Shown here: positions 13,243 to 31,801 of the stretch, one piece after another
Numbering within the stretch: the stretch's first letter is position 1
How the letters are laid out: every line of letters begins with the position of its first letter
Assembly: GCF_011516645.4 (NCBI RefSeq)
Contig: NZ_CP088285.1
Location: forward strand, 1,302,001 to 1,366,000
Origin: Bradyrhizobium septentrionale
GTDB taxonomy: Bacteria > Pseudomonadota > Alphaproteobacteria > Rhizobiales > Xanthobacteraceae
Direction of reading: 5' to 3'
Length of the DNA stretch: 64,000 bases
Notes under the pieces: model-generated
The model's input: only the letters and a program-made list of their open reading frames with translations
Databases searched by the model: none
What the model was told of the DNA's origin: nothing
Made by a program: the position numbers and the translations under genes

Positions 13243-14961
13243 TCAGTTCGCTTTCGCCTTCACGTATCGGCCCGGCGCGGATTCCCCTGGAGGATAGAGA
13301 TTGCTGCCGAGCTGCGGGCGGGCGGGCACCTGGTCTTCAGCCCACGGCTTGAGCCATGCGATCCAGTCGTTCCACCAGCTGCCCGGCTTTTCGGCCGCGC
13401 CCGCCCGCCATGCCGCCGGGTCGTCGCATCGCTCGTCCGACAGCCAGTAGCTTCGCTTGTTCTTCGAGGCGGGGTTGATCACGCCGGCAATATGCCCGCT
13501 CGCACCCAGCACAAAGCGGGTGTTGCCACTGAACAGGCCGGTGGTGCGATAGGCCGATCGCCATGGCACGATGTGATCCTCAACGGTCGCCAGGACATAG
13601 GCAGGCAGGTCGACCCGCCCCAGATCGACAGGCGTGCCGCACATCGTCAGGCGGTTCGGCTCCCGAAGGTTGTTCTCCAGGTACATGTTGCGGATGTACC
13701 AGCAATACATCGGCCCCGGCAGGTTGGTCACGTCGGCGTTCCAGAACAGAAGATCGAAACGTTCCGGCGATTTTCCCTTCAGATAGTTGTTGATCACGTT
13801 CGGCCAGATCAGCTCCTTCGACCGCAGGGTTTGAAACACAAACCCGAGCTCCGAGCCGCGGTAGATGCCGCCATTGCCGATGGTCTGCTCCCGCTGTCGC
13901 GTACTCTCCTCGTCCACGAACACGCCGAGGTCCCCCGGCTCGCGGAAGTCGAGCATCGTCGTCAGCAATGTCACGCAGGCGACAGACTCATCGCCCCGCG
14001 TGCGCAGGATCGCCAGCGCGGACGACAGGATAGTTCCCCCGACGCACCAGCCGACCACGTTGGCCTTGTCGGCACCGGAGATCGACCGGGCCACCTCGAT
14101 CGCACGCATAGCGCCCTGTTCGACGTAATCGTCCCAGGCAAAGTGCCCGCATGAGGCATCCGGATTGCGCCAGGAGACCATGAAGACGGTCAGGCCATGC
14201 TCGACCGCGAAACGGACGAAGGAATTGGCCGGCTGCAGGTCGAGAATGTAGAACTTGTTGATGCAGGGCGGCACGATCAGCAGCGGCCGTGCCGTCACCT
14301 GCTCGGTCGCCGGTTCATATTGAATGAGCTGAAACAGCTCGTTCTCGAAGACGACCGCGCCCCTTGATGTGGCGACGTCCTTTCCGACTTCGAAAGCCTC
14401 CTCATCGGTGATCGTCAGGCTGCCTCTGCCCAGATCGGTCATCAGGTTCTCGAGGCCGGCCTTGAGACTCTGACCTTCGCTGTCCGTCGCAAGCTTGATG
14501 ACGTCAGGATTGGTGGCAATGAAATTGGTCGGGCTCATCGCCTCGACAAGCTGACGCGTGAAGAAGCGCAGGCGAAGCTTTTCCTTCTCGTCGAGATCGA
14601 GCGCTTCAACGAAATCGACGCAATAGCGCGCGTTCAGCAAATAGCATTGCTTCAAAAGGCTATAGGCCGCGTTGTCCCGCCATTCCTCGGCGTTGAACCT
14701 GCGATCGCCACGCGCGGGCTCGATGCTCCCTTCGCTCGACACCCCGGACGCCGATCTGATGATGTGCTCGGTGAGCTGGTACAGGCGCTTGAGGTGCTCG
14801 GCCTGCAATTCGGCGAGGCGTCCCGACGAATTCAGGGTTGAGCCGAGGTTCGCCCCCTCGCGATCGACGTTCGTCGCCCACCCGAGCGACCGCCACAGGC
14901 TTTCCCCCGCTTTCATGAAACCCTCGACAAATTCGTCGGGCATGTTGAATGGCCGATTCAT
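13243..14961 (-). CDS. phaC: Class I poly(3-hydroxyalkanoate) synthase
   Basis: 572 residues, start MNRPFNMPDEFVEGFMKAG. Alpha/beta-hydrolase polymerase with the synthase lipase-like box 'GWCVGGT' (nucleophile Cys306). The family Asp is in 'VEDHIVPWRSAY' and the His in 'GASGHIAGVINP'. It polymerises (R)-3-hydroxybutyryl-CoA into intracellular PHB granules. Last gene of the minus-strand run that includes phaA, phaB, maeB, aceEF-lpdA and dctA. It is separated from dctD by 151 bp, so it may also have its own promoter. It matches class I size and needs no PhaE or PhaR partner. Confidence 0.93.
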   Translation of the reverse strand: MNRPFNMPDEFVEGFMKAGESLWRSLGWATNVDREGANLGSTLNSSGRLAELQAEHLKRLYQLTEHIIRSASGVSSEGSIEPARGDRRFNAEEWRDNAAYSLLKQCYLLNARYCVDFVEALDLDEKEKLRLRFFTRQLVEAMSPTNFIATNPDVIKLATDSEGQSLKAGLENLMTDLGRGSLTITDEEAFEVGKDVATSRGAVVFENELFQLIQYEPATEQVTARPLLIVPPCINKFYILDLQPANSFVRFAVEHGLTVFMVSWRNPDASCGHFAWDDYVEQGAMRAIEVARSISGADKANVVGWCVGGTILSSALAILRTRGDESVACVTLLTTMLDFREPGDLGVFVDEESTRQREQTIGNGGIYRGSELGFVFQTLRSKELIWPNVINNYLKGKSPERFDLLFWNADVTNLPGPMYCWYIRNMYLENNLREPNRLTMCGTPVDLGRVDLPAYVLATVEDHIVPWRSAYRTTGLFSGNTRFVLGASGHIAGVINPASKNKRSYWLSDERCDDPAAWRAGAAEKPGSWWNDWIAWLKPWAEDQVPARPQLGSNLYPPGESAPGRYVKAKAN

Positions 14962-15112: not shown

Positions 15113-16486
15113 TCAGGACCCGGAGCGGACAGCGCCCTCCCTGATCCCGTCGACGCTGACGGAGAGGCGCTTGATCTTGTCGTACAGTGTCTGCTTCGGG
15201 ATGCTCAGAAGCGCGGCGGTCGCCTGGACGTCGCCTTGCTTGCGGCGCAGCGCGTCCTCGATGATCGATCGCTCGATGTTCTCCAATTGCCGCGGCAATG
15301 ACATATCCGACGTCCCGAATCCCGCCTTGTTGATCGTCTTGCGGTCGAGCACACCAAGCACGAAACGATCGGCGACGTTGCGCAGTTCCCGCACATTGCC
15401 CGGCCACGAATAGGCCAGCAAATGCGACATGGTCTGCTCGTCCAGGATCGGCGCATCACGCTCGAACCGCCGCGCCGCGTCCAGGGTGAAATGCTCGAAC
15501 AGCAGAGGGATATCCTCGCGCCGCTCGCGCAGCGGTGGCAGCTCGATGAATGCGACGCCGAGGCGATAGTAGAGATCGGCACGAAACAGCCGCTTTTCGC
15601 TCAGTTCGAACAAATTGGCCTTGCTCGCGGCCACGACCCGGCAATCTACCGAGATCGGCTTGTTGGTTCCGACGCGCTCGATGGATCTGTCCTGCAGCGA
15701 CCTGAGCAACTTGACCTGGACGCTCAACGGCATGCTCTCGATCTCGTCGAGGAACAACGTCCCGCCATTGGCATATTCGATCTTTCCGATCCGTTGCCGG
15801 GTGGCGCCGGTGAACGCGCCCACCTCGTGGCCGAACAGCTCGCTCTCGACCAGCGATTCCGGAAGGCCGCCGCAATTCACCGCGACATAGTTGCCGCCGC
15901 GGCGACCGCTGTGATTGTGCAGGCAGCGCGCGACCACGTCCTTGCCGGTTCCGGTTTCACCATAGATCGTGACATCGACATTGGTCGTAGCCAAAGTGGA
16001 GACGAGCCGGCGCACTTCCTGGATCTGCGGCGATCGGCCCTGCAGGCTCGCCTCGATTCCCTGGCGATCCGCCAGGGCCGATCGCAGCGAACGAACCTCC
16101 AGGGTCAGCCGCCGCTTTTCTGCCGCGCGGCGCACCACCGAGATCAGTTGCTCCGAGGAGCACGGCTTCTCGATGAAGTCGTAGGCGCCGGCCCGCATCG
16201 CCTGCACGGCCATTGAGATATCACCGTGACCGGTGATCAGGATCACCGGGAGATCCTGGTCCAATCGACGCAGATCGGACAGCCATTCCAGGCCGCTCCG
16301 CCCGCGCAGGCGCACGTCGCAGACCACGACAAAGGGCATGTCGGCACGAACGGATCCGTTGGCGGTCTCGACCGAGGCAAATCCCGAGACCGAAAATCCC
16401 GCGAGCTCGAGCGCCTGGACGCCGCCGATCCGGACGTCGTCGTCGTCCTCGACATAGATCACGCCGATCGATTGGTCATCGCCCAT
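15113..16486 (-). CDS. dctD: C4-dicarboxylate response regulator, sigma-54 activator
   Basis: 457 residues. Receiver domain (residues 5-120) with phospho-acceptor Asp57 in 'VVVCDVRLRG' and Lys107. AAA+ domain with Walker A 'GETGTGKD' (176-183), sigma-54 contact loop 'GAFTGA' (223-228) and Walker B 'GGTLFLDEIESM'. C-terminal Fis-type helix-turn-helix ending 'AALLSIPKQTLYDKIKRL'. Activated by DctB, it should drive sigma-54 promoters of dicarboxylate genes; the sigma-54-type site upstream of aceE is a candidate target. The start overlaps the dctB stop by 11 bp. Confidence 0.9.
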   Translation of the reverse strand: MGDDQSIGVIYVEDDDDVRIGGVQALELAGFSVSGFASVETANGSVRADMPFVVVCDVRLRGRSGLEWLSDLRRLDQDLPVILITGHGDISMAVQAMRAGAYDFIEKPCSSEQLISVVRRAAEKRRLTLEVRSLRSALADRQGIEASLQGRSPQIQEVRRLVSTLATTNVDVTIYGETGTGKDVVARCLHNHSGRRGGNYVAVNCGGLPESLVESELFGHEVGAFTGATRQRIGKIEYANGGTLFLDEIESMPLSVQVKLLRSLQDRSIERVGTNKPISVDCRVVAASKANLFELSEKRLFRADLYYRLGVAFIELPPLRERREDIPLLFEHFTLDAARRFERDAPILDEQTMSHLLAYSWPGNVRELRNVADRFVLGVLDRKTINKAGFGTSDMSLPRQLENIERSIIEDALRRKQGDVQATAALLSIPKQTLYDKIKRLSVSVDGIREGAVRSGS

Positions 16487-18374
16487 GCGAAGCCGCCTCT
16501 GCTATCTCAGCCAATGGAAGGATCACGACAAACTCGGCACCATCAGGCATCAGGTTTCGCGCACGCAGTTCGCCGCCAAAAGAGCGCGCGATGTGGTTGG
16601 AGAGCATCAGGCCGAGGCCCAATCCCTTGCCGGCGGGCTTGGTCGTCACGAATGGCTCGAACATGCGCTGCAGAACGTCGGATGCGATCGCGGGCCCGCT
16701 GTTGCTGATCGCGATGCGGCAGCGCGCGGTCTGCGCCTCCTCCCTGCTCGCCCGGATCAGGATCGACTTCTGGTCGACGCTCTCCACCGCATCCAGCGCA
16801 TTGGCCACGATGTTGCACAACAGCTGCTCCAATCGCGTCTGATCGGCGACGACGGCCAGCTTCGCGTCGATCTCGGTCGCGACGGCGACCCCGCCGTCCT
16901 TGACTCGCCCGGCGAGTATCTTGAGCGCCTCGGCGACGGCCTGTTCGACGGAGACCGCACCAAGCGGGCTGCTCGACTTGTATGCGAACACCCGCAATTG
17001 GCTGGTCAGGCGTCCGAGCCGGCGGACCAGCTCGCCAATTCGGGTGAGATTTCCCCGGGCATCGCCGATCGACCCGCGGTCGACCAGCAGGACCGCATTG
17101 TCGGCAGCGGTCTGCAGCGCAGCCAGCGGCTGGTTCAGCTCGTGCACGATGCCGGCCGACATCTGGCCGAGCGCGGCCAGCTTGCCGGCGTGAACGAGTT
17201 CGTCCTGGGCGGCCCGCAATTCGGCGGTGCGCTCCTGCACCCTCGTCTCGAGCATGTCGTTGGCCGTCTGCAACGCGGCCTGGCTGGCCAACCGGTGCTT
17301 GATCTCTCTCCGGCGTTGCTCGACAAGGCCGAGCGCCAGCAGCGCAACGACGGCGACGAGACCCGATATGCCCCCGATGATGAGCGCGATCTGCCGTGTG
17401 GGCGCCTCGTCATCGAGAAGGACCAGGTTCCACAAACCGCGGTTGATCGGAAGCTCGCTGACCGTGTAGGCGGTTCCGTTCTGCGTGGTGATCCGCGCGG
17501 CGTCGCTCTCGGACTGGGCGGCGAAGGTCCATCCGAGCGGCGCCAGGTCGTGGTTTCCGTAGGGTTTGGACCGTGCAATGTCATCGCGCGTCTGGACCGA
17601 CAGCGGCGCCATCGGGCGGTAGCGCCACTCGTCGCGCGAGGCAAGGATCGTCACCTTGCGCTCGTCGACCAGCAGGATGTCGTTATCAGTGTTGCGCCAC
17701 GCTCGCTCGAACGAGTCCAGATTGACCTTGACGGTGGCGACGCCCTTCGTCGTGCCGCCCTGTTTCAGCGCATAGGACAGATAGTAGCCGGCGCGCGCCG
17801 TGGTGATACCGATACCGAAGAATGCCCCGCGGCCGCTCGCGAGTGCTTCGCTCACATAGGGGCGATACGACAGGTTTTCGCCGAAGGGTGTCCCGGGCTG
17901 GTCGAAATCGGCCGCGGCCAGCGTCGCGCCGGAGACGCCCAGGACATAGAGGTTGTCGGCGCCCGCAAGCAGGTTGATCGACTTCAGATACAGGCTGACG
18001 GTTTGCTGCAGTGCAGGATCATTGGGGGCCTCGAGCAGCCGGAACACACTGGGAGACGTCTCCAGCAGGGAGGGCAGGTATTCGAATCTCGAAAGATAAC
18101 CGTCGAGCCTGGCGGCCTCGACCGCCAGCCGCTGTTGCGCCGCGGCGTGCAAATGGTCGAGCCCGCGGCGGAACGTGATCGCATATCCGAGCCACGATGC
18201 CGCGGCGACCAGCGCAAGGGCAAGCGCGCCGCGAACCAGCCACCGCGTGGAAATGGGCATCACCAAACCGACTTTGGGAGGCCCCTTGATGTTCACCAGG
18301 GATGGAAGCTCCGTCATCTTGTGAACCAGCACAAAGCGGGGCGCGCCGGCCACTGCGGACGACCACTCACGCAT
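16476..18374 (-). CDS. dctB: C4-dicarboxylate sensor histidine kinase
   Basis: Up to 632 residues. One membrane helix (about 48-65) precedes a long periplasmic sensor region of double-PAS type ('NLYVLGVSGATLAAADF', 'RAGYYLSYALKQGG'), and a second helix follows at about 330-355. A coiled-coil linker, the H-box 'AGIVHELNQPLAAL' and ATP-binding N and G boxes ('NIVANALDAV', 'GKGLGLGLMLS') follow. It senses succinate, malate or fumarate and phosphorylates DctD. The start is uncertain: the upstream-most ATG overlaps the stop of the small cydB-like fragment (ATGCGTGA) but lacks a strong ribosome site, and M at 18260 is another choice. Confidence 0.88.
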   Translation of the reverse strand: MREWSSAVAGAPRFVLVHKMTELPSLVNIKGPPKVGLVMPISTRWLVRGALALALVAAASWLGYAITFRRGLDHLHAAAQQRLAVEAARLDGYLSRFEYLPSLLETSPSVFRLLEAPNDPALQQTVSLYLKSINLLAGADNLYVLGVSGATLAAADFDQPGTPFGENLSYRPYVSEALASGRGAFFGIGITTARAGYYLSYALKQGGTTKGVATVKVNLDSFERAWRNTDNDILLVDERKVTILASRDEWRYRPMAPLSVQTRDDIARSKPYGNHDLAPLGWTFAAQSESDAARITTQNGTAYTVSELPINRGLWNLVLLDDEAPTRQIALIIGGISGLVAVVALLALGLVEQRRREIKHRLASQAALQTANDMLETRVQERTAELRAAQDELVHAGKLAALGQMSAGIVHELNQPLAALQTAADNAVLLVDRGSIGDARGNLTRIGELVRRLGRLTSQLRVFAYKSSSPLGAVSVEQAVAEALKILAGRVKDGGVAVATEIDAKLAVVADQTRLEQLLCNIVANALDAVESVDQKSILIRASREEAQTARCRIAISNSGPAIASDVLQRMFEPFVTTKPAGKGLGLGLMLSNHIARSFGGELRARNLMPDGAEFVVILPLAEIAEAASHGR

Positions 18375-18551: not shown

Positions 18552-19874
18552 TCAATGCAGCTTGACGTGCGGCTCGGTCCGCCGGGTGATCAGGCGGGCC
18601 AATGTGTCGAGCGCGACCTTCGCCGGACCATGCAGGGCGTATTCGTGCATCTTGTACAGCGACAGGTACATCATCCGGGCGAACATCCCCTCGAAGACCA
18701 GGCTGCCACCCACCAGCGCGCCCATCATCGAGCCGACCGTGCTGAATTCGCCGAGCGACACCAGCGACCCGAAGTCCCGGTAACGATAATCCTTGAGCGC
18801 CTCGCCTTGCAGAAGCCGCGGGATCTGCGAATAGAGGTGGGAGGCCTGCTGATGCGCCGCCTGGGCGCGCGGCGGCACATTGCCCCTTTCGCCCCATGAG
18901 CGGGCCGAACAGTCGCCTATCGCGAAGATGCTGTCGTCGCGCGTGGTCTGCAGGGTCGGCCGCACCACCAGCTGATTGATGCGGTTGGTTTCGAGGCCGG
19001 CGATATCCTTCAGGAAATCCGGTGCCTTGACTCCGGCGGCCCAGACGATCAGCTCGGCAGGAATCGTCCGGCCGTCCGTCAGGCTGACATGGTCGCAACC
19101 GACCTCGGAAACCTTGGCGCCGACCAAGAGATCGACGCCAAGCTTGACCAGCAGCTTCTCCGTCTCTTGCGAAACCCGTTCCGGCAGCGCGGGAAGCACC
19201 CGGTCCGCGGCCTCAATCAGCGTGATCCTGATGTCCTTGTGGGGATCGACCTGGTCGAGGCCATAGGCCACCACCTCCCGCGTCGTCCGGTGCAGCTCCG
19301 CCGCAAGCTCGACGCCGGTCGCGCCGGCGCCGATGATTGCGACCTTCAACTGGTGCTCCCCGAGCGGCCACGATTGGGCGTGGGCGCGGATGCACGCATT
19401 GACCATGCGTTCATGGAATCGTTTGGCATCGACCTGCGACTCCAGCTTGATCGCGTGATCCGCGACGCCGGGCGTGCCAAAGTCGTTGTTCTGGCTGCCG
19501 ACGGCGATGACAAGGACGTCATAGTCGAAGCTCCGCTTCGGCGTCACCTCGCGGCCTTCGGCATCGAGATAGGGCGCCACCTGCACCAGGCGCCGCTCCC
19601 GGTCGATCCCGATCATCTCGCCGATCCGGTAGCGGAAGCCGTGCCAATAGGATTGCGCGAGATAGTCGACCTCATGGGCGGCGATATCCATGCTGCCGGC
19701 CGCGATCTCGTGCAGCTTCGGCTTCCAGACATGGGTGCGGTTGCGCTCGATCAACGTGACCTCGAGCTTTCCCTTGCGGCCGTATTTGTCGCCGAGCCGG
19801 GTCGCGAGCTCCAGTCCGCCCGCTCCGCCGCCGACAATCACGACCCGCCGCTTTCCCGATTGCACCTCACTCAT
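18552..19874 (-). CDS. ndh: Type II NADH:quinone dehydrogenase
   Basis: 440 residues. FAD Rossmann motif near the N-terminus ('VVIVGGGAGGLELATRLG') and NADH fold in the middle ('VAIIGAGATGVELAAELH'). 'IFAIGDCSA' around residue 300 contacts FAD, and the C-terminal amphipathic end carries hydrophobic segments ('MMGALVGGSLVFEGMFARMM') for membrane attachment. It passes electrons from NADH to quinone without pumping protons. In this run it could drain NADH made by PDH and malic enzyme. 49 bp downstream of maeB and co-directional. Confidence 0.9.
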   Translation of the reverse strand: MSEVQSGKRRVVIVGGGAGGLELATRLGDKYGRKGKLEVTLIERNRTHVWKPKLHEIAAGSMDIAAHEVDYLAQSYWHGFRYRIGEMIGIDRERRLVQVAPYLDAEGREVTPKRSFDYDVLVIAVGSQNNDFGTPGVADHAIKLESQVDAKRFHERMVNACIRAHAQSWPLGEHQLKVAIIGAGATGVELAAELHRTTREVVAYGLDQVDPHKDIRITLIEAADRVLPALPERVSQETEKLLVKLGVDLLVGAKVSEVGCDHVSLTDGRTIPAELIVWAAGVKAPDFLKDIAGLETNRINQLVVRPTLQTTRDDSIFAIGDCSARSWGERGNVPPRAQAAHQQASHLYSQIPRLLQGEALKDYRYRDFGSLVSLGEFSTVGSMMGALVGGSLVFEGMFARMMYLSLYKMHEYALHGPAKVALDTLARLITRRTEPHVKLH

Positions 19875-19923: not shown

Positions 19924-22200
19924 TCAGGCGCGCTCGGAAACCGCATCCGCGACGGCCACTGCAGCCATGTTCACGATACGGCGCACGGTGGAGGACGGCG
20001 TGAGAATATGCGCCGGCTTTGCCGCGCCGAGCAAAATCCCGCCGACCGTCAGCCCCTGCCCCGCGGCCATCCGCAACAGATTGTATGAGATGTTGGCGGC
20101 GTCCAAATTCGGCATCACCAGCACGTTGGCCGGACCGACAAAGCCGGAATCGGGAAATTCATGATCGAGCACGGACTGCGAAAGCGCCGCATCGCCGCGC
20201 ATCTCGCCCTCCACGGCCAGATCGGGCGACCGCTCGCGAATGATCGCGCGCGCCTCCCGCATCTTGTGCGCTTCCGGCACCGCCGAGCTCCCGAAGCTCG
20301 AATGCGACAGCAGCGCCACCCTCGGCGTGATGCCGAAGCGCTTGACCTCCTCCGCCGCCAGCAAGGCGATGTCGGCGACCTGCTCGGCGGTCGGATTGAG
20401 ATTGCAGTGGGTATCGCAAATGAAAAGCTGATGCTGCGGGAGTATGAGCATCTGCATCACGGCGAGTGTCCGCACGTTCTCCCGCGTTCCGATCACGTTG
20501 CGGATCGCCGCCAGATGATCCGCGGTCCGCCCGATCACGCCGCACAGCATCGCATCGCCGATGCCCCGTTCCAGCAGGATCGACGCCAGCACGGTCGCGT
20601 TGCTCCGCGTTTCCGAAAACGCCAGCGCGGCCGACACGCCGTCGCGCTTCCTGCGCAGATGGTAGACATCTGCGCACTGTGAATAGACTTCTGCATCGTG
20701 CGGATCGATGATCTCGCAGTCGGTGCCGGGCCTGAGCCGAAGCCCGAACGCCGCGATCCGATCATCGATCGTCGCCGGCCGGCCAAGCAGCAGCGGCCTG
20801 GCGATCCCCTCGTCGACGATGACCTGCGCCGCGCGCAGCACGCGCTCATCCTCGCCCTCCGCCAGAACGAGGGATTTTCCGCTTCTCTTGGCGATGGAAA
20901 AGACCGGCTGCATCGCGTTGCCGGATTGATAGACGAACCGGCCCAGTTGTTGGCGATAGGCATCCATATCGGCGATCGGACGTCGGGCGACGCCGCTGTC
21001 GGCCGCGGCCCTGGCCACCGCCGGCGCGATCATCTCGATCAGGCGCGGGTCGAACGGCTTGGGAATGAGGTAGTCGCGGCCGAAGCGAAGTCCCTCGCCC
21101 TTGTACGCGGCGGCAACGACTTCCGGTACCTCCGCCATGGCGAGGTCCGCGAGCGCGCGGACCGTCGCGAGCTTCATCTCCTCATTGATGGTGGTCGCCC
21201 CGCAGTCGAGCGCACCGCGGAAGATGAACGGGAAACAAAGCACATTGTTGATCTGGTTCGGGTAGTCCGAACGCCCGGTGCCGATGATCGCATCGGGACG
21301 CACCGCCAGCGCGTCCTCCGGCATGATTTCGGGAATCGGATTGGCCATCGCGAAGATCAGGGGATCGCGGGCCATCTTCTTGACCATGTCAGGCGTCAGC
21401 ACCTTGCCGGCCGACAGGCCAAGGAAGACGTCGGCGTCCGCAATGATGTCGTCCAGGCTTCGCGCATCCGTCTTGACGGCATAGCGCGCCTTGTTGTCGT
21501 CCATGCTTTCCACGCGGCCGGCATACACGACGCCCTTGGCGTCGGTCACGATGATCCGCTCGCGGCGCAATCCAAGGCTCACGATCAGATCGAGGCAGGC
21601 AAGCGCCGCGGCGCCTGCGCCGGAGCAGACCAGCTTGACGTCCGCGATGTCCTTCTTGACCAGCTTCAGTCCATTGAGGATCGCCGCGGCCGCGATGATC
21701 GCGGTGCCGTGCTGATCGTCGTGGAACACCGGTATCTTCATCCGCTCGCGGAGCTTCTTCTCGATGTAGAAGCATTCCGGTGCCTTGATGTCCTCCAGGT
21801 TGATGCCGCCGAAGGTCGGCTCCATCCTGGCGATCGTCTCGATCAGCGCGTCGGGGTCTTCCTCGGCGAGCTCGATGTCGAAAACGTCGATTCCGGCGAA
21901 CTTCTTGAACAGGCACGCCTTGCCTTCCATGACCGGTTTTCCGGCCAGCGCGCCGATATTGCCGAGGCCGAGCACCGCCGTGCCGTTGGTGATGACGGCG
22001 ACGAGATTGCTGCGCGCCGTCAGCACATCGGCTTGCAGCGGGTCCTGGGCGATGACCAGGCAAGGCTCCGCCACACCGGGTGAATACGCCAACGCCAGAT
22101 CGCGCTGGGTGGCCATTGCCGTGGTCGGCACCACGGAGATCTTTCCCGGCGTCGGCAGGCGATGATATTCGAGGGCGGCTTCCTTCAGATCTTGGTCCAT
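19924..22200 (-). CDS. maeB: NADP-dependent malic enzyme with phosphotransacetylase-like domain
   Basis: 758 residues from [16 protein letters not shown]; this ATG, the second of two adjacent, is better spaced from GGGGA. Malic enzyme part (residues 1-430) with '[20 protein letters not shown]' and '[17 protein letters not shown]', the metal/substrate block '[10 protein letters not shown]', and dinucleotide fold '[17 protein letters not shown]'. The C-terminal ~320 residues are a phosphate acetyl/butyryltransferase-like domain, regulatory in known MaeB proteins. It turns malate into pyruvate with CO2 and NADPH, providing substrate to AceEF and NADPH for PhaB. Size matches the hybrid form. Confidence 0.93.
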
Positions 22201-22340: not shown

Positions 22341-23066
22341 TCAGACCACGTGCTGGCCACCATTCGCCGAGATCGTCGAGCCGGTGATGAAGCCGGCATC
22401 GTCGGACGCCAGGAACAGCACCGCGCGCGCGATCTCGTGCGGTTCACCCAAGCGGCCGACCGGAATCTGAGGCAGGATGTTCTTGGCTACGATCTCCGGG
22501 TTGATCGCCTTGACCATCTCGGTGGCGATGTAGCCGGGACAGATCGCGTTGACCGTGATGCCGGCGCGCGCGCCTTCCTGGGCCAGCGCCTTCACGAAGC
22601 CGATGTCGCCTGCCTTGGCGGCGGAGTAGTTGACCTGGCCCATCTGGCCCTTCTGGCCGTTGATCGAGGAGATGCAGATCACCCGGCCGAACTTGCGCTC
22701 GCGCATGCCGTCCCACACCGGCCGCGTCATGTTGAACAGCGAGTTCAAATTGGTGTTGATGACCGCGTACCATTGCTCCGCCGTCATCTTGTGGAACATG
22801 CCGTCCTTGGTGATGCCAGCATTGTTGACCAGCACCTCCACCGGCCCGAGATCGGCCTCGACCTGCTTCAGGCCCGCGACGCACGCCTCGTAGTTCGAGA
22901 CATCCCATTTGTAGACGGCGATGCCGGTCTCGGACTTGAACTTCGCGGCCGCCTCGTCATTGCCGGCATAGCTCGCCGCCACCTTGTAGCCGGCTGCCTT
23001 GAGCGCGACCGAGATCGCCTCGCCGATGCCGCGCGTTCCGCCGGTCACCACTGCAACTCTGGACAT
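22341..23066 (-). CDS. phaB: Acetoacetyl-CoA reductase
   Basis: 241 residues, short-chain dehydrogenase with cofactor loop 'VTGGTRGIGEAIS' (residues 7-19) and 'NNAGITKDGMFHKM'. The catalytic Ser is in 'CISSINGQKGQMGQVNYSAAK', quoted here as two adjoining parts up to the Y-x3-K motif 'NYSAAK'. Strong similarity to PhbB of PHB producers. It reduces acetoacetyl-CoA to (R)-3-hydroxybutyryl-CoA with NADPH. 63 bp downstream of phaA; a 140-bp gap before maeB. Confidence 0.93.
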   Translation of the reverse strand: MSRVAVVTGGTRGIGEAISVALKAAGYKVAASYAGNDEAAAKFKSETGIAVYKWDVSNYEACVAGLKQVEADLGPVEVLVNNAGITKDGMFHKMTAEQWYAVINTNLNSLFNMTRPVWDGMRERKFGRVICISSINGQKGQMGQVNYSAAKAGDIGFVKALAQEGARAGITVNAICPGYIATEMVKAINPEIVAKNILPQIPVGRLGEPHEIARAVLFLASDDAGFITGSTISANGGQHVV

Positions 23067-23129: not shown

Positions 23130-24302
23130 TCAGCGCTCGACCGTCAGGGCGACGCCCATGCCGCCGCCGATACACAGCGTGGCGAGCCCCTTCTTCGCGC
23201 CACGCTTCTGCATTTCGAACAAGAGCGTCGTGAGCACGCGCGCACCGGACGCGCCGATCGGATGGCCGATGGCGATGGCGCCACCGTTCACGTTGACGAT
23301 CGACGGATCCCAGCCCATGTCCTTGTTGACGGCGATCGCCTGCGCCGCGAAGGCCTCGTTGGCTTCGACAAGATCGAGGTCTTTGACCTTCCAGCCGGCC
23401 TTTTCCAGCGCCTTGCGCGATGCCGGAATTGGCCCTGAACCCATCACCGCGGGATCGACGCCGGCGGTGGCCCACGAGACGATTTTCGCGAGCGGCGTCA
23501 GGCCGCGCTTGCTGGCTTCGTCGGCGCTCATCAACACCAGCGCGGCCGCGCCGTCGTTGAGACCCGAAGCGTTGCCGGCGGTCACCGTGCCTTCCTTGTT
23601 GAAGGCGGGCTTCAGCTTTGCAAGCGCGTCCAGCGTCGTGCCCGGGCGGATATATTCGTCCTGGTCGACAACGACATCGCCCTTCCTGGTCTTGACCGTG
23701 ACCGGGACGATCTCGTCCTTGAACCGGCCGCCCTTCTGCGCATCCTCGGCCTTGTTCTGCGAGCCGGTGGCGAACGCATCCTGCTCCTCCCTTGTGATCT
23801 GCCATCTGGCGGCGATGTTCTCCGCCGTGACACCCATGTGGTAGCCGTGGAAGGCATCGAGCAGGCCGTCCTTCAACATCGAGTCGACGAACTTGACGTC
23901 GCCCATCTTGGTGCCGCCGCGCATATGCGACAGATGCGGCGCCATCGACATCGACTCCATGCCGCCGGCGACGATGATCCTGGCGTCGCCATTGGCGATC
24001 TGCTGCAGGCCAAGCGCTACCGACCGCAGGCCCGAGCCGCAGAGCTGGTTCATGCCCCACGCCGTCTTCTCCTGCGGAATGCCGGCTGCCATCGCGGCCT
24101 GCCGCGCCGGGTTCTGACCCTCACCGCCGGACAGCACCTGGCCCAGGATGACCTCGTCGACGTCCTCAGGCGACACTTTGGCGCGCTCGAGCGCCCCCTT
24201 GATCGCGATCGCCCCGAGTTCGTGGGCGGGTATCGTCCCGAACGCTCCGTTGAAGGAGCCCACCGGTGTCCGCGCCGCGGAGACCACAACCACGTCCGTC
24301 AT
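23130..24302 (-). CDS. phaA: Acetyl-CoA C-acetyltransferase (beta-ketothiolase)
   Basis: 390 residues, start [19 protein letters not shown] with GGGAG upstream. Acyl-acceptor Cys in '[11 protein letters not shown]' (near residue 89), His in '[10 protein letters not shown]' and second Cys in '[10 protein letters not shown]'. It joins two acetyl-CoA into acetoacetyl-CoA, the first PHB step. Follows dctA with 66 bp between, same strand. Length and motifs are standard. Confidence 0.93.
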
Positions 24303-24368: not shown

Positions 24369-25703
24369 CTAGCCTGTCGTTACGGCAACTTCGATGTCGC
24401 TCGGATCAATGTCGCGATCGAGCCCGGCACGCAGCTTCTCGCGGTCGAGTTCGCCTTCCCACCACGCCACGACGACGCAAGCAACACCGTTGCCGCACAG
24501 ATTGGTCAGTGCCCGACACTCGCTCATGAACTTGTCGATGCCGAGTACGATCGCCATGCCGGGAAGCAGCTCAGGCCTGACAGCCGCGAGCGTGCCTGCG
24601 AGCGTGATGAAGCCGGCGCCGGTGATTCCCGAGGCGCCCTTCGACGTCAGCATGGCAACGATGAGGATCGTCATTTGCTCACCGAAGCTGAGCTCGACAT
24701 TCATCGCCTGGGCGATGAACAGCGTCGCCAGGGTCATGTAGATGTTGGTGCCGTCGAGGTTGAAGGAGTAGCCGGTGGGCACGACGAGGCCGACGACCGA
24801 CTTGGAGCAGCCGAGACGCTCCAGCTTTTCCATCAACTGCGGAAGCGCGCTCTCCGAGGATGACGTGCCGAGCACGATCAGCAGCTCGTCCTTGATGTAT
24901 TTGAGGAACTTGAAGATGGAGAAACCAGCGATGCGGGCGATGATGCCGAGCCCGACGACCACGAACAGCAGCGCGGTGAGATAGAAGGTCGCGATCAGAC
25001 CGGCGAGATTGCCGAGCGCCTGGGGCCCATAGCGGCCGATCGTGTAGGCCATTGCACCAAAAGCGCCGATCGGCGCGACCTTGACGACGATCGAGATGAC
25101 GCCGAACATCGCATGCGCGACGTCGTCGATCATCGAACGGACCGTGTGAGCCCGTTCGCCGAGCCCCATCAGCGCGAAGCCGAACAGGATGGCAAACAGC
25201 AGCACCTGCAGGATCTCGCCCTGGGCGAACGCTCCGACCACGGTGTCCGGAATGATGTGCAGGACGAAGTCGACCGACTTCATCTCGCTCGCCTGCTTGG
25301 CATAGCCGGCGACCGCCGCGGCGTTCGACTGGCCCTGGAACCCTGTTCCCGGATGCAGCACGTTGGCGACGATCAGGCCCAGCGCCAGCGCAAAGGTCGA
25401 GACGACCTCGAAATAGACCAGCGACTTGATCGCGACGCGGCCCACTTTCTTCACTTCGGAAATATGGGCGATGCCGGAGACGACCGTGCAGAAGATGATC
25501 GGCGCAATGGCCATCTTGATGAGCTTGACGAAGCCGTCGCCCATCGCCTTGATCCAGTCATTCTTGGCGAGATCAGGCCAGAGCCAGCCGACAATAACGC
25601 CGAGCACGATCGCCGCGAGCACCTGAACGTACAGAATCCGGTAAAACGGCTTCTTCTGCGTGACAGGCAACGTTCCGGACGTCGCAGTGGTCGTTGCAGA
25701 CAT
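24369..25703 (-). CDS. dctA: C4-dicarboxylate:H+/Na+ symporter
   Basis: 444 residues, start [18 protein letters not shown] with GGGAGAA 7 nt upstream. DAACS-family transporter with about eight membrane helices and two re-entrant loops. The Ser-rich '[16 protein letters not shown]', '[11 protein letters not shown]', '[12 protein letters not shown]' and '[13 protein letters not shown]' motifs are all present. It imports succinate, fumarate and malate. Only 48 bp separate it from the upstream lpdA, so it probably lacks its own sigma-54 promoter and is read from the aceE promoter, unlike the classical dctA/dctBD layout. Confidence 0.93.
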
Positions 25704-25751: not shown

Positions 25752-27503
25752 TCATTTCTTCTTCTGTGGCGGCAGATCGGTGCAGTGGCCTTCGAAGACC
25801 TCCGCCGCCATGCCGATGGACTCGCCGAGCGTCGGGTGCGGATGAATGGTCTTGCCGATATCCGCCGGCTCGCATCCCATCTCGATCGCAAGGCAGATTT
25901 CGCTGATCAGATCGCCCGCATGCGTGCCGACGATCCCGCCGCCGATGACGCGATGGGTTGTCGTGTCGAACAGCAGCTTGGTGAAACCCTCGTCGCGTCC
26001 GTTGGCGATGGCCCGGCCGGACGCCGCCCAAGGAAAGACCGCCTTGCCGAACTTGATGCCCTCGGCCTTGCACTGCTCCTCGGTCTTGCCGGCCCAGGCC
26101 ACTTCGGGATCGGTGTAGGCGACGGACGGAATCTGTCGCGCATCGAAATACGACTTCTCGCCGTGTGCCACTTCGGCCGCCACATGACCTTCATGCACGG
26201 CCTTGTGCGCCAGCATCGGCTGCCCCACGACGTCGCCAATGGCAAAGATGTGCGCCACGTTGGTGCGCATCTGCCTGTCGACGTCGATGAAGCCGCGATC
26301 CGTGACCGCGACACCGGCCTTGTCGGCACCGATCTTCTTGCCGTTCGGGCTGCGACCGACCGACACCAGGACGAGGTCATAGAGCTGCGGTCCCGCGGGG
26401 GCTTGCTCGCCTTCGAAGCTGACCTCGATCCCGGCTTCGGTGGCCTTCCCGCCGACCGTCTTGGTCTTCAGCATCACCTTGTCGAAGCGATGCGTGTTCA
26501 TCTTGTCCCAGACCTTGACCAGGTCACGGTCGGCGCCCTGCATCAGGCCGTCGAGCATTTCGACGACGTCGATGCGTACCCCGAGGGTCGAATAGACCGT
26601 CGCCATTTCGAGCCCGATGATGCCGCCGCCAATCACCAGCATGCGCTTCGGGATCGACTTCAGCTCCAGCGCGCCGGTCGAATCGACGATGCGCGGATCC
26701 TCGGGCAGGAAAGGCAGCTTCACGGCCTCGCTGCCGGCGGCGATGATCGCCTTGGCGAACCTGATCGTTTTCTTGCCGCCCGCCACGGCGACCTCCAGAT
26801 GATGCGGGTCGAGGAAGGCACCGACGCCGGTCACCACCTCGACCTTGCGGGCCTTGGCCATCCCGGCGAGCCCGCCCGTCAGCTTCTTGATCACGCCGTC
26901 CTTGAAAGCGCGCAGCTTGCCCAGGTCGATCTGCGGCGCGCCAAAGGAGATCCCGTGGTCCGGGAGATGCTTGACCTCGTCGACGACGGACGCCGTATGC
27001 AGCAGCGCCTTGCTCGGGATACAGCCGACGTTGAGACACACGCCTCCGAGCGTGTCGTAGCGCTCGACCAGCACGGTCTTCATGCCGAGATCGGCGGCGC
27101 GGAAGGCGGCCGAATAGCCGCCGGGACCGGCGCCCAGCACCAGCACGTCGCATTCGATCTCCGCCTTGCCGGAATAGGACGCCGCAGTGGGCGCAACCGG
27201 CGGCGGAGCGGCGGCCGGCTGCGATGCAGGCGCTGGCGCGGGTGCCGGCGCAGCCGCGGCGCCCGCGGTCTCCAGCACGAGGATCGTCGACCCTTCGCTC
27301 ACCTTGTCGTCGACCTTGACCCTGACTTCCTTGACGACGCCGGCATGCGAGGATGGGATCTCCATCGACGCCTTGTCGGACTCGACCATGATGAGGCTGG
27401 TATCAACCGCGACGGTCTCGCCGGGCTTCACCATGACCTCGATGACGGCCACGTCCTTGAAGTCGCCGATATCGGGGACCTTGACTTCGATCTGCTGAGC
27501 CAT
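25752..27503 (-). CDS. lpdA: Dihydrolipoyl dehydrogenase (E3) with N-terminal lipoyl domain
   Basis: 583 residues. Residues 1-80 are a lipoyl domain with the lipoylation site '[11 protein letters not shown]'. An Ala/Pro linker (82-115) joins it to a complete E3: FAD motif '[19 protein letters not shown]', redox disulfide '[13 protein letters not shown]', NAD fold '[17 protein letters not shown]', and C-terminal His-Glu pair in 'HPHPTLGES'. It reoxidises dihydrolipoyl groups of the pyruvate dehydrogenase complex. E3 with a fused lipoyl domain is known from PDH clusters with AceE-type E1. 17 bp after aceF. Confidence 0.92.
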
Positions 27504-27520: not shown

Positions 27521-29089
27521 TCAGAACAACACGCGCCGCAGATCGGCGAGCACATTGGCGAAGTAGACGTTGAAACGTGCGGCGGCCGCGCCGTCGATGA
27601 CGCGATGATCCCAGGACAACGAGAGCGGCAGAGTGAGGCGCGAGGTCCAGGTCTTGCCGTCGGCCGAATGCTGCTTCCAGTATCCCTTGCACACGCCCAT
27701 GATCGCGACTTCCGGAGCGTTGATGATCGGCGTGAAGTAGATGCCGCCGATGCCGCCGAGCGACGAGATCGAGAAGGTGCCGCCCTGCATCTGGTCCGGC
27801 TTGATCTTGCCCTCGCGCGCCAGCTTGGCGAGCGCGTTCATCTCGTTCGCGATCTCCGGCACCGATTTCTTGTCGGCATCGCGGATCACCGGCACCATCA
27901 GGCCGTTCGGCGTGTCCGCGGCAAATCCGATGTGCCAGTAGTTCTTGTAGACCAGCGTGTCGCCGTCGAGACTGGCATTGAACTCCGGGAATTTCTGCAG
28001 TGTCGCGACCGCCGCCTTCACCATGAACGGCAGCAGCGAGAGCTTGACGCCGCTCTTCTCCAGCTCCTTGTTCATCTTCACCCGGAATTGCTCGAGATCG
28101 GTGATATCGGCCTCGTCATGGGTCGTGACGTGCGGAATGACGACCCAGTTGCGGTGCAGGTTAGCTGCAGAAATCTTCTTGATGCGGCCGAGCTCCTTGC
28201 GCTCGACCGGTCCGAATTTCGCGAAATCGACCTTGGGCCAGGGCAGCAGATCGATGCCGCCGACGCCGCCCCCGCTCGCCGCCGCAGCCTGCGGCTTGGC
28301 GGCTGGCGCTCCGCCCTTGGCAAAGGTCTCGACATCCTCGCGCAGGATGCGGCCGTGATTGCCCGAGCCCTTGACCTTGCCGAGATCGACACCCATTTCG
28401 CGCGCCAGCTTGCGCACGGCCGGACCGGCATAGGCGAGCGCAAACGCCTTCTCGTCGACCCCGCCGGCCTGCGCCACGGCAGCGGCGGCGGGTGCCGACG
28501 TTGCCGGTGCCGGCGCAGGCGCGACAGAGCTCGCCGCGGCCGATGCATCGCTGGTCGCAAGCACGAGAATGATCGCGCCTTCGCTGACCTTGTCACCGGT
28601 CTTCACCTTGATCTCGCGCACGGTGCCCGAGAGCGGCGCCGGCACTTCCATCGTCGCCTTGTCCGACTCGAGCGCGATCAGCGGATCCTCGGCTTTGACG
28701 CTGTCGCCGGGCTTGACGAAGATCTCGATGACTGGAACGTCCTTGAAGTCGCCGATGTCGGGGACACGCACCTCGGCGATACCCGCCGGGGCGCTGACGG
28801 GCGAAGGCGGCGCGCTGACGACGGGGCGCGTTTCGGCCTGCTCGGCGCCCGCGCCCTCGAACTGCACGATCACCACGCCTTCGCTCACCTTGTCGCCAAC
28901 CTTGACGACCACCGACTTCACCACGCCATCGCGCGGCGACGGCACCTCCATGGTCGCCTTGTCGGACTCCAGCGCGACCAGCGGATCCTCGGCCTTCACC
29001 TTGTCGCCCGGCTTGACGAAAACCTCGATGACCGGGACGTCCTTGAAGTCACCAATATCGGGAACCTTGATGTCGATCAGACCACTCAT
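27521..29089 (-). CDS. aceF: Pyruvate dehydrogenase E2, dihydrolipoyl acetyltransferase
   Basis: 522 residues. Two tandem lipoyl domains, each with '[10 protein letters not shown]' (around residues 43 and 148), and Ala/Pro linkers. A peripheral-subunit-binding domain follows ('[20 protein letters not shown]', about 218-255). The C-terminal acetyltransferase core has the catalytic '[16 protein letters not shown]'. It moves acetyl groups from lipoyl to CoA and is the core of the complex. 24 bp after aceE and before lpdA in the same operon. Confidence 0.93.
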
Positions 29090-29113
29090 CGCTCTGCCCT
29101 CGGCTCCCCTGCC

Positions 29114-31801
29114 TCACACGGTCCATGGCGCCGCGCGCCCGGCGTCGATCTGATATTTGGCGATGGCCTCGGCCACGATTGCGGGCTTGATGGTTCCCTC
29201 ATCGGCGAGCGCCTTGAGTGCCGCGACGGCGACATAGTGGCGGTCGACCTCGAAGAATTTCCGGAGCTTGACGCGATAGTCGCTGCGGCCGAACCCGTCG
29301 GTGCCAAGCACGACGTAGCGGCGGCCGGCGGCCTGCACATATTCCCGGATCTGGTCGGGGTAGTTGCGCATATAGTCGGTCGACGCCACGACCGGCCCCG
29401 AATGCCCCTCGAGCTGCGCTTCCACCCAGCTCTTGCGGCGCGGCTCGGTCGGATGCAACAGGTTCCAGCGCTCTGCCGCCATGCCGTCACGACGCAGTTC
29501 GTTGAAGCTGGTTGCGCTCCAGACGTCCGCGGTCACGCCGAAGTCCGCCTTGAGCAGATCGGCCGCCGCGATCACCTCGCGCAGGATCGTGCCCGAGCCG
29601 ACCAGCTGGACGCGGAGTCCCTTCTTCGCGGTCTCGCCGCCGTTCTTCAGGAGGTAGAGGCCTTTGAGAATTCCCTCCTCGGCGCCCGTGCCTGCGTCAG
29701 CCAGCGCCGGGTGCTGATAATTCTCGTTCATCAGGGTGATGTAGTAGTAGACGTCCTCCTGCGCCTCATACATGCGGCGCATGCCTTCGCGGACGATGGT
29801 CACGACCTCATAGGCGAAGGTCGGATCGTAAGAGACGCAGTTCGGGATCGTCGCCGCGAGCACGTGGCTGTGGCCGTCTTCATGCTGTAAGCCTTCGCCG
29901 TTCAGCGTTGTGCGGCCGGCCGTGCCGCCCAGCAGGAAGCCGCGCGCCCGCATGTCGCCTGCGAGCCAGGCGAGGTCACCCACCCGCTGCAAGCCGAACA
30001 TCGAGTAGTAGATGTAGAACGGGATCATCGGCACGTTGTTGGTCGAGTAGGACGTCGCCGCGACGATCCAGCTCGACATCGCGCCACCTTCGTTGATGCC
30101 CTCCTGGAAGACCTGCCCGCTCTTGTCCTCGCGGTAGTACATCAGCTGATCGGCATCCTGCGGCCTGTAGAGCTGGCCCACCGACGAATAGATGCCGAGT
30201 TGCCGGAACATACCCTCCATGCCGAAGGTGCGGGATTCGTCCGGCACGATCGGCACGATGTGCTTGCCGATCGCCTTGTCGCGCACGAGGGCGCCGAGCA
30301 ACTGCACGAACGCCATCGTGGTCGAGATCTCGCGGTCTCCGGTGTTTTCGAGCAGCCGCTGGAACGTCGAGAGCGGCGGAATTTGCAAGGACGCTGATTT
30401 CCGCCGGCGTTGCGGCAGGTAGCCGCCGAGCTTTTCGCGCTGCGCCCGGAAATACTTCATTTCCGGGCTGTCTTCCGGCAGTCGAAGGAAAGGCACCTTG
30501 GCCAGGTCCGCGTCGGCGACCGGTACCTGGAAGCGGTCACGGAAGCCGCGCAGCGCGTCCTGCGTCATCTTCTTCGCCTGGTGGGCGATCATCTGGCCTT
30601 CGCCGGACTCGCCCATGCCGTAGCCTTTGACGGTTTTCGGCAGAATGACCGTGGGCTGACCCTTGTGGTTCACGGCCGCGGTGTAAGCGGCAAAGACCTT
30701 CTCGGGATCATGGCCGCCGCGCGCGAGCTGCCAGATATCGTCGTCGCTCATATCGGCGACGAGCTGCTTGGTTTCCTCGTACTTGCCGAAGAAGTGCTCG
30801 CGGATATAGGCGCCGCTCTTACTCTTGAAGTCCTGGTATTCGCCGTCGACGCATTCTTCCATGAGCCTGAGCAGCAGCCCGCTCTTGTCCTTTTGCAGCA
30901 GACGGTCCCACCCCGAGCCCCACAGCACCTTGATGACGTTCCAGCCCGCACCGCGGAAGATGCTTTCGAGCTCCTGCACGATCTTGCCGTTGCCGCGAAC
31001 GGGTCCATCGAGCCGCTGCAGGTTGCAGTTGATGACGAAGATCAGATTGTCGAGGTTCTCGCGGCCGGCGAGCGAGATCGCGCCGAGCGATTCCGGCTCG
31101 TCGGTTTCGCCGTCGCCCATGAACGCCCAGACCTTGCGGTTGGACGTCTCGGCCAGCTTGCGGTTCTCGAGATATTTCAGGAAGCGCGCCTGATAGATCG
31201 CCATCAAGGGCCCGAGCCCCATCGACACCGTCGGGAACTGCCAGAAGTCCGGCATCAACCAGGGATGCGGATAGCTCGACAGCCCCTTGCCGCTGGTCTC
31301 CTGCCTGAAGCTGAGCAGTTGCTCCTCGCTCAACCGCCCTTCAAGGAAAGCGCGCGCATAGATGCCGGGCGAGCAGTGCCCCTGGACAAATATCAGGTCG
31401 CCGCCATGGGCATCGGTCGGCGCGTGCCAGAAATGGCCAAAGCCGATGTCATAGAGTGTGGCGGCCGACTGGAAGCTCGCGATATGGCCGCCGAGCTCCG
31501 AGCTTTCCTTGTTGGCGCGCAGAATGATCGCAAGGGCGTTCCAGCGGATGATGGAGCGAAGCTTGTGCTCGATCGCGCGATCGCCCGGCAGCGCCGGCTG
31601 CTGGTCCAGCGGGATCGTGTTGCAATAGGGCGTTGTCAGCGACTGCTCGATCTGAAGGCCGCCGCGGCGCGCCGCCTCGAGCATCGCATTGACCACGAAC
31701 TCGGCGCGTTCATTGCCGCGATGCCCCTGGACTGCCGACAAGGCGTCAAGCCAATCCCGGGTTTCCTGCGGGTCCTGATCGTGAGCGTCCGCGATCGTCA
31801 T
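29114..31801 (-). CDS. aceE: Pyruvate dehydrogenase E1, homodimeric AceE type
   Basis: 895 residues starting MTIADAHDQDPQETRDWL, with GGAGAAGG just upstream. Single-chain E1 with ThDP/Mg motif 'GDGETDEPESLGAISLAGRE' (around 230-250), 'NLQRLDGPVRGNGKIVQELE', 'VKGYGMGESGEG' and late 'NENYQHPAL'. It decarboxylates pyruvate and acetylates lipoyl-E2. Bradyrhizobium-type bacteria usually use a two-subunit PdhA/PdhB E1 as the core enzyme, so this AceE set is likely an additional, condition-specific complex. First gene of the long minus-strand run. Confidence 0.94.
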   Translation of the reverse strand: MTIADAHDQDPQETRDWLDALSAVQGHRGNERAEFVVNAMLEAARRGGLQIEQSLTTPYCNTIPLDQQPALPGDRAIEHKLRSIIRWNALAIILRANKESSELGGHIASFQSAATLYDIGFGHFWHAPTDAHGGDLIFVQGHCSPGIYARAFLEGRLSEEQLLSFRQETSGKGLSSYPHPWLMPDFWQFPTVSMGLGPLMAIYQARFLKYLENRKLAETSNRKVWAFMGDGETDEPESLGAISLAGRENLDNLIFVINCNLQRLDGPVRGNGKIVQELESIFRGAGWNVIKVLWGSGWDRLLQKDKSGLLLRLMEECVDGEYQDFKSKSGAYIREHFFGKYEETKQLVADMSDDDIWQLARGGHDPEKVFAAYTAAVNHKGQPTVILPKTVKGYGMGESGEGQMIAHQAKKMTQDALRGFRDRFQVPVADADLAKVPFLRLPEDSPEMKYFRAQREKLGGYLPQRRRKSASLQIPPLSTFQRLLENTGDREISTTMAFVQLLGALVRDKAIGKHIVPIVPDESRTFGMEGMFRQLGIYSSVGQLYRPQDADQLMYYREDKSGQVFQEGINEGGAMSSWIVAATSYSTNNVPMIPFYIYYSMFGLQRVGDLAWLAGDMRARGFLLGGTAGRTTLNGEGLQHEDGHSHVLAATIPNCVSYDPTFAYEVVTIVREGMRRMYEAQEDVYYYITLMNENYQHPALADAGTGAEEGILKGLYLLKNGGETAKKGLRVQLVGSGTILREVIAAADLLKADFGVTADVWSATSFNELRRDGMAAERWNLLHPTEPRRKSWVEAQLEGHSGPVVASTDYMRNYPDQIREYVQAAGRRYVVLGTDGFGRSDYRVKLRKFFEVDRHYVAVAALKALADEGTIKPAIVAEAIAKYQIDAGRAAPWTV

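Follow-up and report, generated by a model that had tools for sequence, protein, structure and literature searches.

A 64,000-nucleotide stretch of the Bradyrhizobium septentrionale genome (hereafter, the window; positions 1302001–1366000 of contig NZ_CP088285.1, within a 10.4-Mb genome) contains, at positions 13243–31801 of the minus strand, a run of eleven genes in the order aceE-aceF-lpd-dctA-phaA-phaB-maeB-ndh2-dctB-dctD-phaC. The predicted products are a pyruvate dehydrogenase complex, a C4-dicarboxylate symporter with the DctB/DctD (DctBD) sensor-activator pair, a malic enzyme, a type II NADH dehydrogenase-like flavoprotein (NDH-2), and three enzymes of polyhydroxybutyrate (PHB) synthesis. 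We consider it fairly probable that this run is the local copy of a horizontally transferred, DctBD-switched sigma-54 unit that would convert C4-dicarboxylates into acetyl-CoA and PHB and vent the surplus NADH via NDH-2. An earlier, sequence-only reading had suggested that these genes act as one module. The comparative search for the gene order in relatives, set beforehand as the test of this suggestion, found the order conserved; the opposite outcome, which was to count against the module, did not occur. The unit is also wider than that reading supposed: the set recurs, in part reordered, among unrelated bacteria of soil and roots that belong to other families and classes, and is sometimes plasmid-borne. 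Additional features that the earlier reading had not mentioned include a divergent lipA gene, a sigma-54 promoter, an upstream near-palindrome, a short leader open reading frame (ORF), and a larger version of the unit in most of the sister loci.

Within Bradyrhizobium, AceE at 91% identity or more is encoded in 16 of the 146 sampled genomes, including that of the window, and one further genome has it at 72%; the nearest named relative is that of Bradyrhizobium sp. Ec3.3 (93%). We compared the surroundings of the 15 other loci at or above 91% (hereafter, sister loci) and of the 72% locus. One sister locus (G001) was dropped from the order counts because its contig ends just past aceF, which leaves 14 informative loci. 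All 14 retain the order aceE-aceF-lpd-dctA-maeB-ndh2-dctB-dctD; phaA-phaB lies between dctA and maeB in 13, and phaC follows dctD in 12. The lipA gene is found divergently upstream in 13 of the 15 sister loci (the exceptions are G069 and G145). The larger version includes cydA-cydB, encoding cytochrome bd oxidase, between ndh2 and dctB (12 of 14), a match to a thioesterase (11), and a phasin (10). The genome G023 shows another arrangement, aceE-aceF-lpd-maeB-dctA-ndh2-dctB-dctD, with phaC, cydB, cydA, phaB, and phaA on the opposite strand and lipA beyond. In Bradyrhizobium sp. Ec3.3 (L004), aceE-aceF-lpd is present at 90–93% identity and the rest is absent within the 22.7 kb covered; in Bradyrhizobium sp. 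URHD0069 (AceE at 74%), aceE-aceF-lpd-maeB-ndh2-phaC-phaA extends as far as the stretch does, and dctA and a TAXI receptor gene lie on the opposite strand. A TAXI receptor also lies beside a different dctA (52–56% identity) in seven sister loci (for example, L098 turned, 6161–7135), where receptor and transporter look as if they had been swapped in together. A second, distant type of homodimeric AceE (50–57% identical to that of the window) is found in 16 of the 146 genomes of the genus; in the two loci L112 and L113 of this type, aceF and lpd adjoin, and no other part of the unit is present except a partial lpd match in L112.

Beyond the genus, in Pelomonas sp. Root1237, fourteen parts span ~23 kb on one strand (aceE-aceF-lpd-maeB-lipA-dctA-ndh2-phaC-phaA-phaB-cydA-cydB-dctB-dctD), and a Cupriavidus oxalaticus plasmid carries the same fourteen in identical order, so that lipA lies inside the gene run in both. 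Ten of these parts are present in Variovorax boronicumulans and on two Variovorax paradoxus plasmids, nine in Ideonella, and ten in genome G206 (same class, outside the order). A Microvirga ossetica plasmid carries eight parts on one strand, with phaC, TAXI, and thioesterase genes opposite. The copy on the Skermanella mucosa plasmid pSM-1 was annotated independently: a single strand encodes aceE, aceF, lpdA, a malic enzyme, a dicarboxylate symporter, an NAD(P)/FAD oxidoreductase, a thiolase, and phbB, followed by cydA, cydB, phaC, a TAXI protein, an SLC13 permease, YoaK, a thioesterase, an ATP-binding (kinase-like) protein, and a sigma-54 regulator. Altogether, of the lineages Pelomonas, Variovorax, C. 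oxalaticus, Ideonella, Skermanella, and Microvirga, four have plasmid-borne copies. Partial sets were seen within the stretches covered, namely, aceE-aceF-lpd-maeB in L007, L074, L009, and L010 and aceE-aceF-lpd in L013; in Filomicrobium (L045), dctB-dctD lies ~4 kb ahead of aceE-aceF-lpd-maeB. Two stretches of G149 were left out because their contig differs from that of L008. Several of these families are common on their own, as would be expected if the run were a chance neighborhood of unrelated central-metabolism genes; however, 8–14 of the same families lie within ~30 kb in several lineages, plasmids included, and we regard chance assembly as having practically no likelihood.

MaeB was uninformative as a marker because it is common in the order of G148, with at least 207 of 300 genomes encoding it. 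Among the matches listed, we followed up the four best further ones: in G568, the contig ends at 5.7 kb and shows aceF-lpd-maeB with a partial dctA; in G608, an ndh2 relative lies on the strand opposite maeB, ~10 kb away; and nothing further of the unit was found around maeB in G658 and G722.

AceE of any kind is scarce in the class of the window (11 of 385 sampled genomes at E ≤ 1e-200, including that of the window). In an AceE tree of 109 rows, a starred fork of 23 rows unites the Bradyrhizobium proteins with the six betaproteobacterial copies, and every module copy falls into a single region that also holds Methylobacterium and Hyphomicrobiaceae; the wider fork, with a support of 92, stays under the starred level and takes in one Propionibacteriaceae row. 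The AceE proteins of Ralstonia, Cupriavidus sp. BIS7, and Paraburkholderia sit apart from this region. The simplest reading of these relationships is horizontal transfer of the unit. The parts are not equally similar: between the window or sister loci and the betaproteobacterial copies, AceE, AceF, Lpd, MaeB, NDH-2, CydA, CydB, and DctD share 63–86% identity, whereas DctA, PhaA, PhaB, PhaC, DctB, and LipA share ~46–61%. Moreover, the window DctA is closer to a paralog in its own genome (78%) than to the betaproteobacterial copies, and thus the six less similar parts may have been exchanged locally.

A sigma-54-type -24/-12 promoter element, CTGGCACGAATGCTGCT (31994–32010, minus strand), stands 0.2 kb ahead of aceE and agrees with the consensus at 12 of 13 positions; it was missed by the strict pattern (TTGC) and found once C was allowed there. 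Fourteen of the 15 sister loci share its core 16-mer exactly and the fifteenth differs at one position, whereas the surrounding region drifts. At 144 bp upstream of the -24 element lies a palindrome, TCCGAAATTTCGGA (32141–32154, minus strand), the proposed upstream activating sequence. Its counterpart in the sister loci is TCCGANNTTTCGG in 14 of 15, with one base changed in the other, 142–145 bp before the -24 element. The composite of promoter and palindrome occurs exactly once per genome in 14 of the 16 module genomes searched and in neither G019, which has the changed base, nor G023; the reversed control yielded zero occurrences. The window thus combines a -24/-12 promoter with an upstream palindromic site, as in a sigma-54/DctD regulon, and 14 of the 15 sisters have the near-palindrome.

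We extended the promoter scan to the other AceE loci, counting sites that agree with the consensus at 11 or more of 13 positions and lie no further than 500 bp from the aceE match (background, 1.6% of stretches). Such a site was found in 10 of the 20 scanned loci whose AceE falls in the module part of the tree (the window, L008, L009, L010, L011, G023, L193, L194, L195, and L196), whereas none of the nine other AceE loci reach 11 positions and two reach 10. The strict palindrome lies 109–129 bp before the promoter in three Variovorax copies, Methylobacterium Leaf104, and G023 (background, 1.8% of 600-bp stretches). DctD is the sole sigma-54 activator found in every informative sister locus, which suggests that it binds the near-palindrome and activates the aceE promoter. 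The shared sigma-54 promoter ahead of aceE supports common control of the genes. Between promoter and aceE, a leader ORF of nine codons (MPANTQVIT; 31906–31935, minus strand) is present in all 16 loci behind a GAGGG stretch, with 10 codons in one locus and with TAA, TAG, or TGA as the stop.

All eleven genes listed by the sequence-only reading were recovered as intact minus-strand genes, open over their full length. The aceE gene (29114–31801) encodes a homodimeric pyruvate dehydrogenase E1 (TIGR00759 above cut-off) with relatives at 71–97% identity in the sister, alphaproteobacterial, and betaproteobacterial modules; the ORF reaches 32071, and the start at 31801 given earlier agrees with the family match, whose first aligned residue is number 97 of the longest ORF. 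The aceF product (27521–29089) is an E2 with two lipoyl domains (TIGR01348 above cut-off; PF00364 twice, PF02817, PF00198; HRVIDG motif), and the lpd product (25752–27503, start inferred) is a dihydrolipoyl dehydrogenase (TIGR01350 above cut-off; CLNVGC) with an N-terminal lipoyl domain (PF00364 at residues 69–140 of the ORF). There are three lipoyl ESDKA sites, two in AceF and one in Lpd; with E1 and E2 both above their family cut-offs, lipoyl sites, and an E3, the complement of a homodimeric pyruvate dehydrogenase complex is present. The divergent lipA gene (32308–33402, plus strand) encodes a lipoyl synthase (TIGR00510 above cut-off) that likely serves these three lipoyl domains.

DctA (24369–25703, start inferred; PF00375) belongs to PRK01663 (above cut-off), membership that identifies it as a symporter with C4-dicarboxylates as the predicted substrate. 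The acetyl-CoA acetyltransferase PhaA (23130–24302, start inferred; LCGSGLRS) and the acetoacetyl-CoA reductase PhaB (22341–23066; YSAAK) score above the cut-offs of TIGR01930 and TIGR01829, respectively, and do not reach those of the narrower equivalogs NF042967 (PhaA) and NF042966 (PhaB). The class I polyhydroxyalkanoate synthase PhaC (13243–14961) scores above the TIGR01838 cut-off and has the G-x-C-x-G box (GWCVG). MaeB (19924–22203, start inferred; SGAGAA), with a fused PTA-like domain, is clearly predicted to be of the malic enzyme class; its best solved relatives carry the name NADP-dependent malic enzyme, and its score against the corresponding model, PRK12861, is 1094.5 bits, below the cut-off of 1178. 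NDH-2 (18552–19874) was identified from the nearest solved structures, NADH dehydrogenase-like SAOUHSC_00878 (5na1, 3.6e-41) and YjlD (9pxk, 2e-37); no NCBIfam model was above cut-off among the matches listed, and a simple pattern for a quinone-site motif found no match.

The putative sensor kinase DctB (16476–18374; HELNQP) matches, in its sensor part, the DctB structure 3e4o (1.8e-17) and 3by9, named just 'Sensor protein' (7.8e-25). DctD (15113–16486; PF00158, PF02954, GAFTGA) is a sigma-54 activator whose receiver matches the C4-dicarboxylate regulators 1qkk (127 bits) and 1l5y (125 bits), with the next receiver-only chain at 72 bits; longer NtrC-type chains outscore both via the ATPase domain. 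Neither protein scored above the cut-off of an NCBIfam DctB or DctD model among the matches listed, and the assignment as a DctB/DctD pair follows from the sensor and receiver matches to DctB and DctD structures, that is, from domain-level similarity.

The gaps between the genes, with starts picked from the family matches, are ~24, 17, 48, 66, 63, 137, 49, 177, −11 (an overlap), and 151 bp from aceE to phaC. Seven of the ten are under 70 bp, in keeping with the earlier description of gaps mostly below that length; the three longer ones lie ahead of maeB, dctB, and phaC. Eleven terminator-like sites were found (shuffle mean, 11.8; no excess), and a sigma-70 promoter scan returned nothing exceeding shuffles.

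A PdhA above the family cut-off is encoded elsewhere in the genome, so that the pyruvate dehydrogenase of the run is an extra one. There is a second MaeB (55% identity), and DctA has seven more full-length relatives at 38–78%. The best paralog of DctD shares 42% identity with it, compared with 63–66% for DctD of the betaproteobacterial modules.

In the mechanism that we propose, external C4-dicarboxylates would be sensed by DctB, and phosphorylated DctD, bound at the near-palindrome ~144 bp upstream, would drive the -24/-12 promoter ahead of aceE, presumably giving rise to a single transcript. Firing of the promoter would supply DctA for import, malic enzyme, a dedicated AceEF-Lpd pyruvate dehydrogenase lipoylated by LipA at its three lipoyl domains, PhaA, PhaB, PhaC, and NDH-2. 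Malic enzyme converts two malate into two pyruvate, two CO2, and two NAD(P)H; pyruvate dehydrogenase converts the two pyruvate into two acetyl-CoA, two CO2, and two NADH; and the formation of one 3-hydroxybutyrate unit from two acetyl-CoA uses one NAD(P)H. If the flux runs to PHB and the cofactors are those presumed here, the balance for two malate would be one 3-hydroxybutyrate unit, four CO2, and three surplus NAD(P)H. NDH-2 transfers electrons from NADH to quinone without proton pumping, and bd oxidase transfers them from quinone to oxygen. Thus NDH-2, joined by cytochrome bd in many other copies, would pass the surplus to oxygen with little gain of ATP, and through such low-yield disposal of NADH carbon could be hoarded without the need for growth or the tricarboxylic acid cycle. 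The NDH-II and bd branch of Azotobacter moves 2 H+ per half O2, against 10 in the coupled branch (PMC8686835).

A number of observations weigh against this scheme. The three gaps of 137–177 bp leave room for additional promoters. The strict palindrome TCCGN6CGGA is found in the window and one sister alone, the final A being G in 14 of 15, and it is absent in C. oxalaticus, Pelomonas, Skermanella, and URHD0069. The other half of the 20 module-part loci, including Ideonella, Microvirga, and G206, have no site at 11 consensus positions or more; L006 reaches 10, and the remaining nine stay below 10. No dctBD was found beside the Ideonella, Microvirga, and URHD0069 copies within the stretches covered. 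The window copy lacks cydAB, phasin, and thioesterase genes, so that it does not encode the bd half of an NDH-2 and bd respiratory branch, and its oxygen end must rely on another oxidase; G069 likewise lacks cydAB, and one bd oxidase gene elsewhere in the window genome is 48% identical to the sister-locus CydA. In G012 (cydA and cydB; L106 15335–17732) and G019 (cydB; L109 2304–3304), the matches to the bd genes change reading frame, which may reflect decay or an assembly fault. A review terms the rhizobial PhaB NADH-dependent (PMC6305480).

Furthermore, PHB is not an invariant product, given that G145, in the stretch read, keeps the dicarboxylate, pyruvate dehydrogenase, and NDH-2 core and has neither pha nor cyd genes, and that phaC is missing from G021 and from the Variovorax copies in the stretches read. 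The 'single-purpose storage' of the sequence-only reading is therefore slightly too narrow. These copies, together with the dctBD-dctA-maeB-pyruvate dehydrogenase-NDH-2 core shared by all 14 informative sisters, are what would be expected of a general unit for rapid oxidation of C4-dicarboxylates to acetyl-CoA with NADH venting, in which the PHB genes are optional riders. However, phaA-phaB is present in 13 of the 14 sisters and in G023, Pelomonas, C. oxalaticus, Variovorax, Ideonella, Skermanella, G206, and Microvirga, phaA is seen at the end of the URHD0069 stretch, and a phasin, the expected granule protein, is encoded in 10 of the 14 sisters; we therefore hold this alternative to be rather unlikely. 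The DctBD-switched storage unit can be put in a stronger form, which we offer tentatively, at somewhat less than even chances. Here, a self-contained, plasmid-borne unit that takes up, decarboxylates, stores, and vents under one DctBD/sigma-54 switch, with its own pyruvate dehydrogenase, lipoyl synthase, and NADH-to-oxygen chain, and with the proton gradient of the bd oxidase paying for DctA uptake, would spread between classes and allow root and soil bacteria to hoard dicarboxylates without depending on growth, ATP demand, or the tricarboxylic acid cycle.

The sequence-only reading had likened the module to one expected of bacteroids fed on malate. On this alternative, the unit would have evolved for nodule life, with malate as the main carbon source and oxygen scarce. 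Bacteroids do run malic enzyme and pyruvate dehydrogenase on malate, with PHB increasing when oxygen is low (PMC8324050). In the window genome, nifH is above cut-off; nodules are the source of the Microvirga ossetica record, and legume roots that of two Variovorax records. The distribution of nifH, however, does not track the module: 12 of the 17 module genomes and 81 of the remaining 129 have it above cut-off (Fisher p=0.60), and five carriers (G007, G012, G069, G086, and G109) have none above cut-off. Because nifH is about equally frequent with and without it, the unit is not a symbiosis marker. Carriers also include Ideonella, and large copies come from Pelomonas, C. oxalaticus (sewage sludge), and Skermanella (oil-contaminated desert). 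A bacteroid-specific role thus finds no support, and we reject a bacteroid-only one on the nifH distribution; an origin in nodule life appears improbable, although the unit may well work in nodules. The root or nodule origin of some carriers, judged from their names or source fields, fits a role in the rhizosphere, but other carriers in this small sample are from sludge or oil-contaminated desert.

All the enzymes involved are individually known, and the unit resembles several known systems in part. As in the rhizobial dctA-dctBD system, there is a symporter, a DctB/DctD pair, a GAFTGA-containing sigma-54 activator, and a -24/-12 promoter; regulation of dctA by DctBD in rhizobia is described in a review (PMC6305480). 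Unlike in that system, dctA lies here inside the run and the promoter ahead of pyruvate dehydrogenase, and therefore import, catabolism, and storage would share one switch. The thiolase, reductase, and class I synthase, with the phasin of 10 of the 14 sister copies, parallel phaCAB operons; unlike in these, they are joined here to a dedicated supply of acetyl-CoA, an importer, a sensor, and an outlet for NADH. The housekeeping aceEF-lpd operons of Burkholderiales and others also encode a homodimeric E1, an E2, and, often, a lipoyl-Lpd; they belong to other branches of the AceE tree, and all nine of the scanned loci lack a sigma-54-like site at 11 positions or more. NDH-2, with the bd genes of 12 of the 14 sisters, recalls the low-proton-yield NDH-II and cytochrome bd branch of Azotobacter vinelandii that serves respiratory protection (PMC8686835). 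Unlike that branch as described there, it is encoded with the carbon pathway that it would relieve, its carriers need not fix nitrogen, and the window copy lacks bd.

In the open-access literature, subscription papers being outside the scope of the search, we found no description of the assembly, of a sigma-54 switch before pyruvate dehydrogenase, of transfer between classes, or of the inclusion of an NADH outlet. If the proposed reading is correct, carbon storage in these bacteria can be a transferable, separately switched trait and is not just an overflow of central metabolism, pyruvate dehydrogenase itself is under a dicarboxylate sensor, and a ready-made, naturally transferred route leads from cheap dicarboxylates to bioplastic. 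The genes for disposing of NADH accompany the pathway, and natural variants have them, lack them, or show them decaying, so that the question whether PHB serves as a redox or a carbon sink becomes directly testable.

Relatives of NDH-2 were also seen outside the unit. One (71% identity; L094:16559–17938) is encoded behind an IS element and 2 kb beyond the CO2-fixation operon of Cupriavidus necator H16 pHG1; on a Variovorax plasmid, tartrate and succinate-semialdehyde dehydrogenase genes precede a close relative. Proteins of this NDH-2 type may serve catabolic clusters generally as an outlet for NADH. Relatives at 47–49% identity in the plasmid collection come from Escherichia coli, Klebsiella, Salmonella, and Serratia records.

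The region upstream of the run (35936–48061) encodes a GroEL-like protein, an amidohydrolase, two PF02332 hydroxylase subunits, a reductase, an alcohol dehydrogenase, and a second GAF-type sigma-54 activator, and resembles a propane/acetone monooxygenase cluster. The run could, in principle, be part of this region (37642–48061), with the AcoR-like regulator encoded at 33857–35839 as its activator: the two are adjacent, and this regulator also belongs to the sigma-54 activator class. However, among the upstream stretches fetched from the 15 sister loci (5.5 kb in G024 and 15 kb in each of the others), none contains the AcoR, GroEL, or monooxygenase genes, and the promoter and near-palindrome are kept there. 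On this absence we reject the link to the monooxygenase genes, to which we give very little credence.

A strict -24/-12 site (45915–45930, minus strand) lies near the start of the alcohol dehydrogenase ORF. Toward the other end of the window, two luciferase-like FMN monooxygenases are encoded at 195–1472 and 10778–12175, the second adjoining an NlpA lipoprotein gene.

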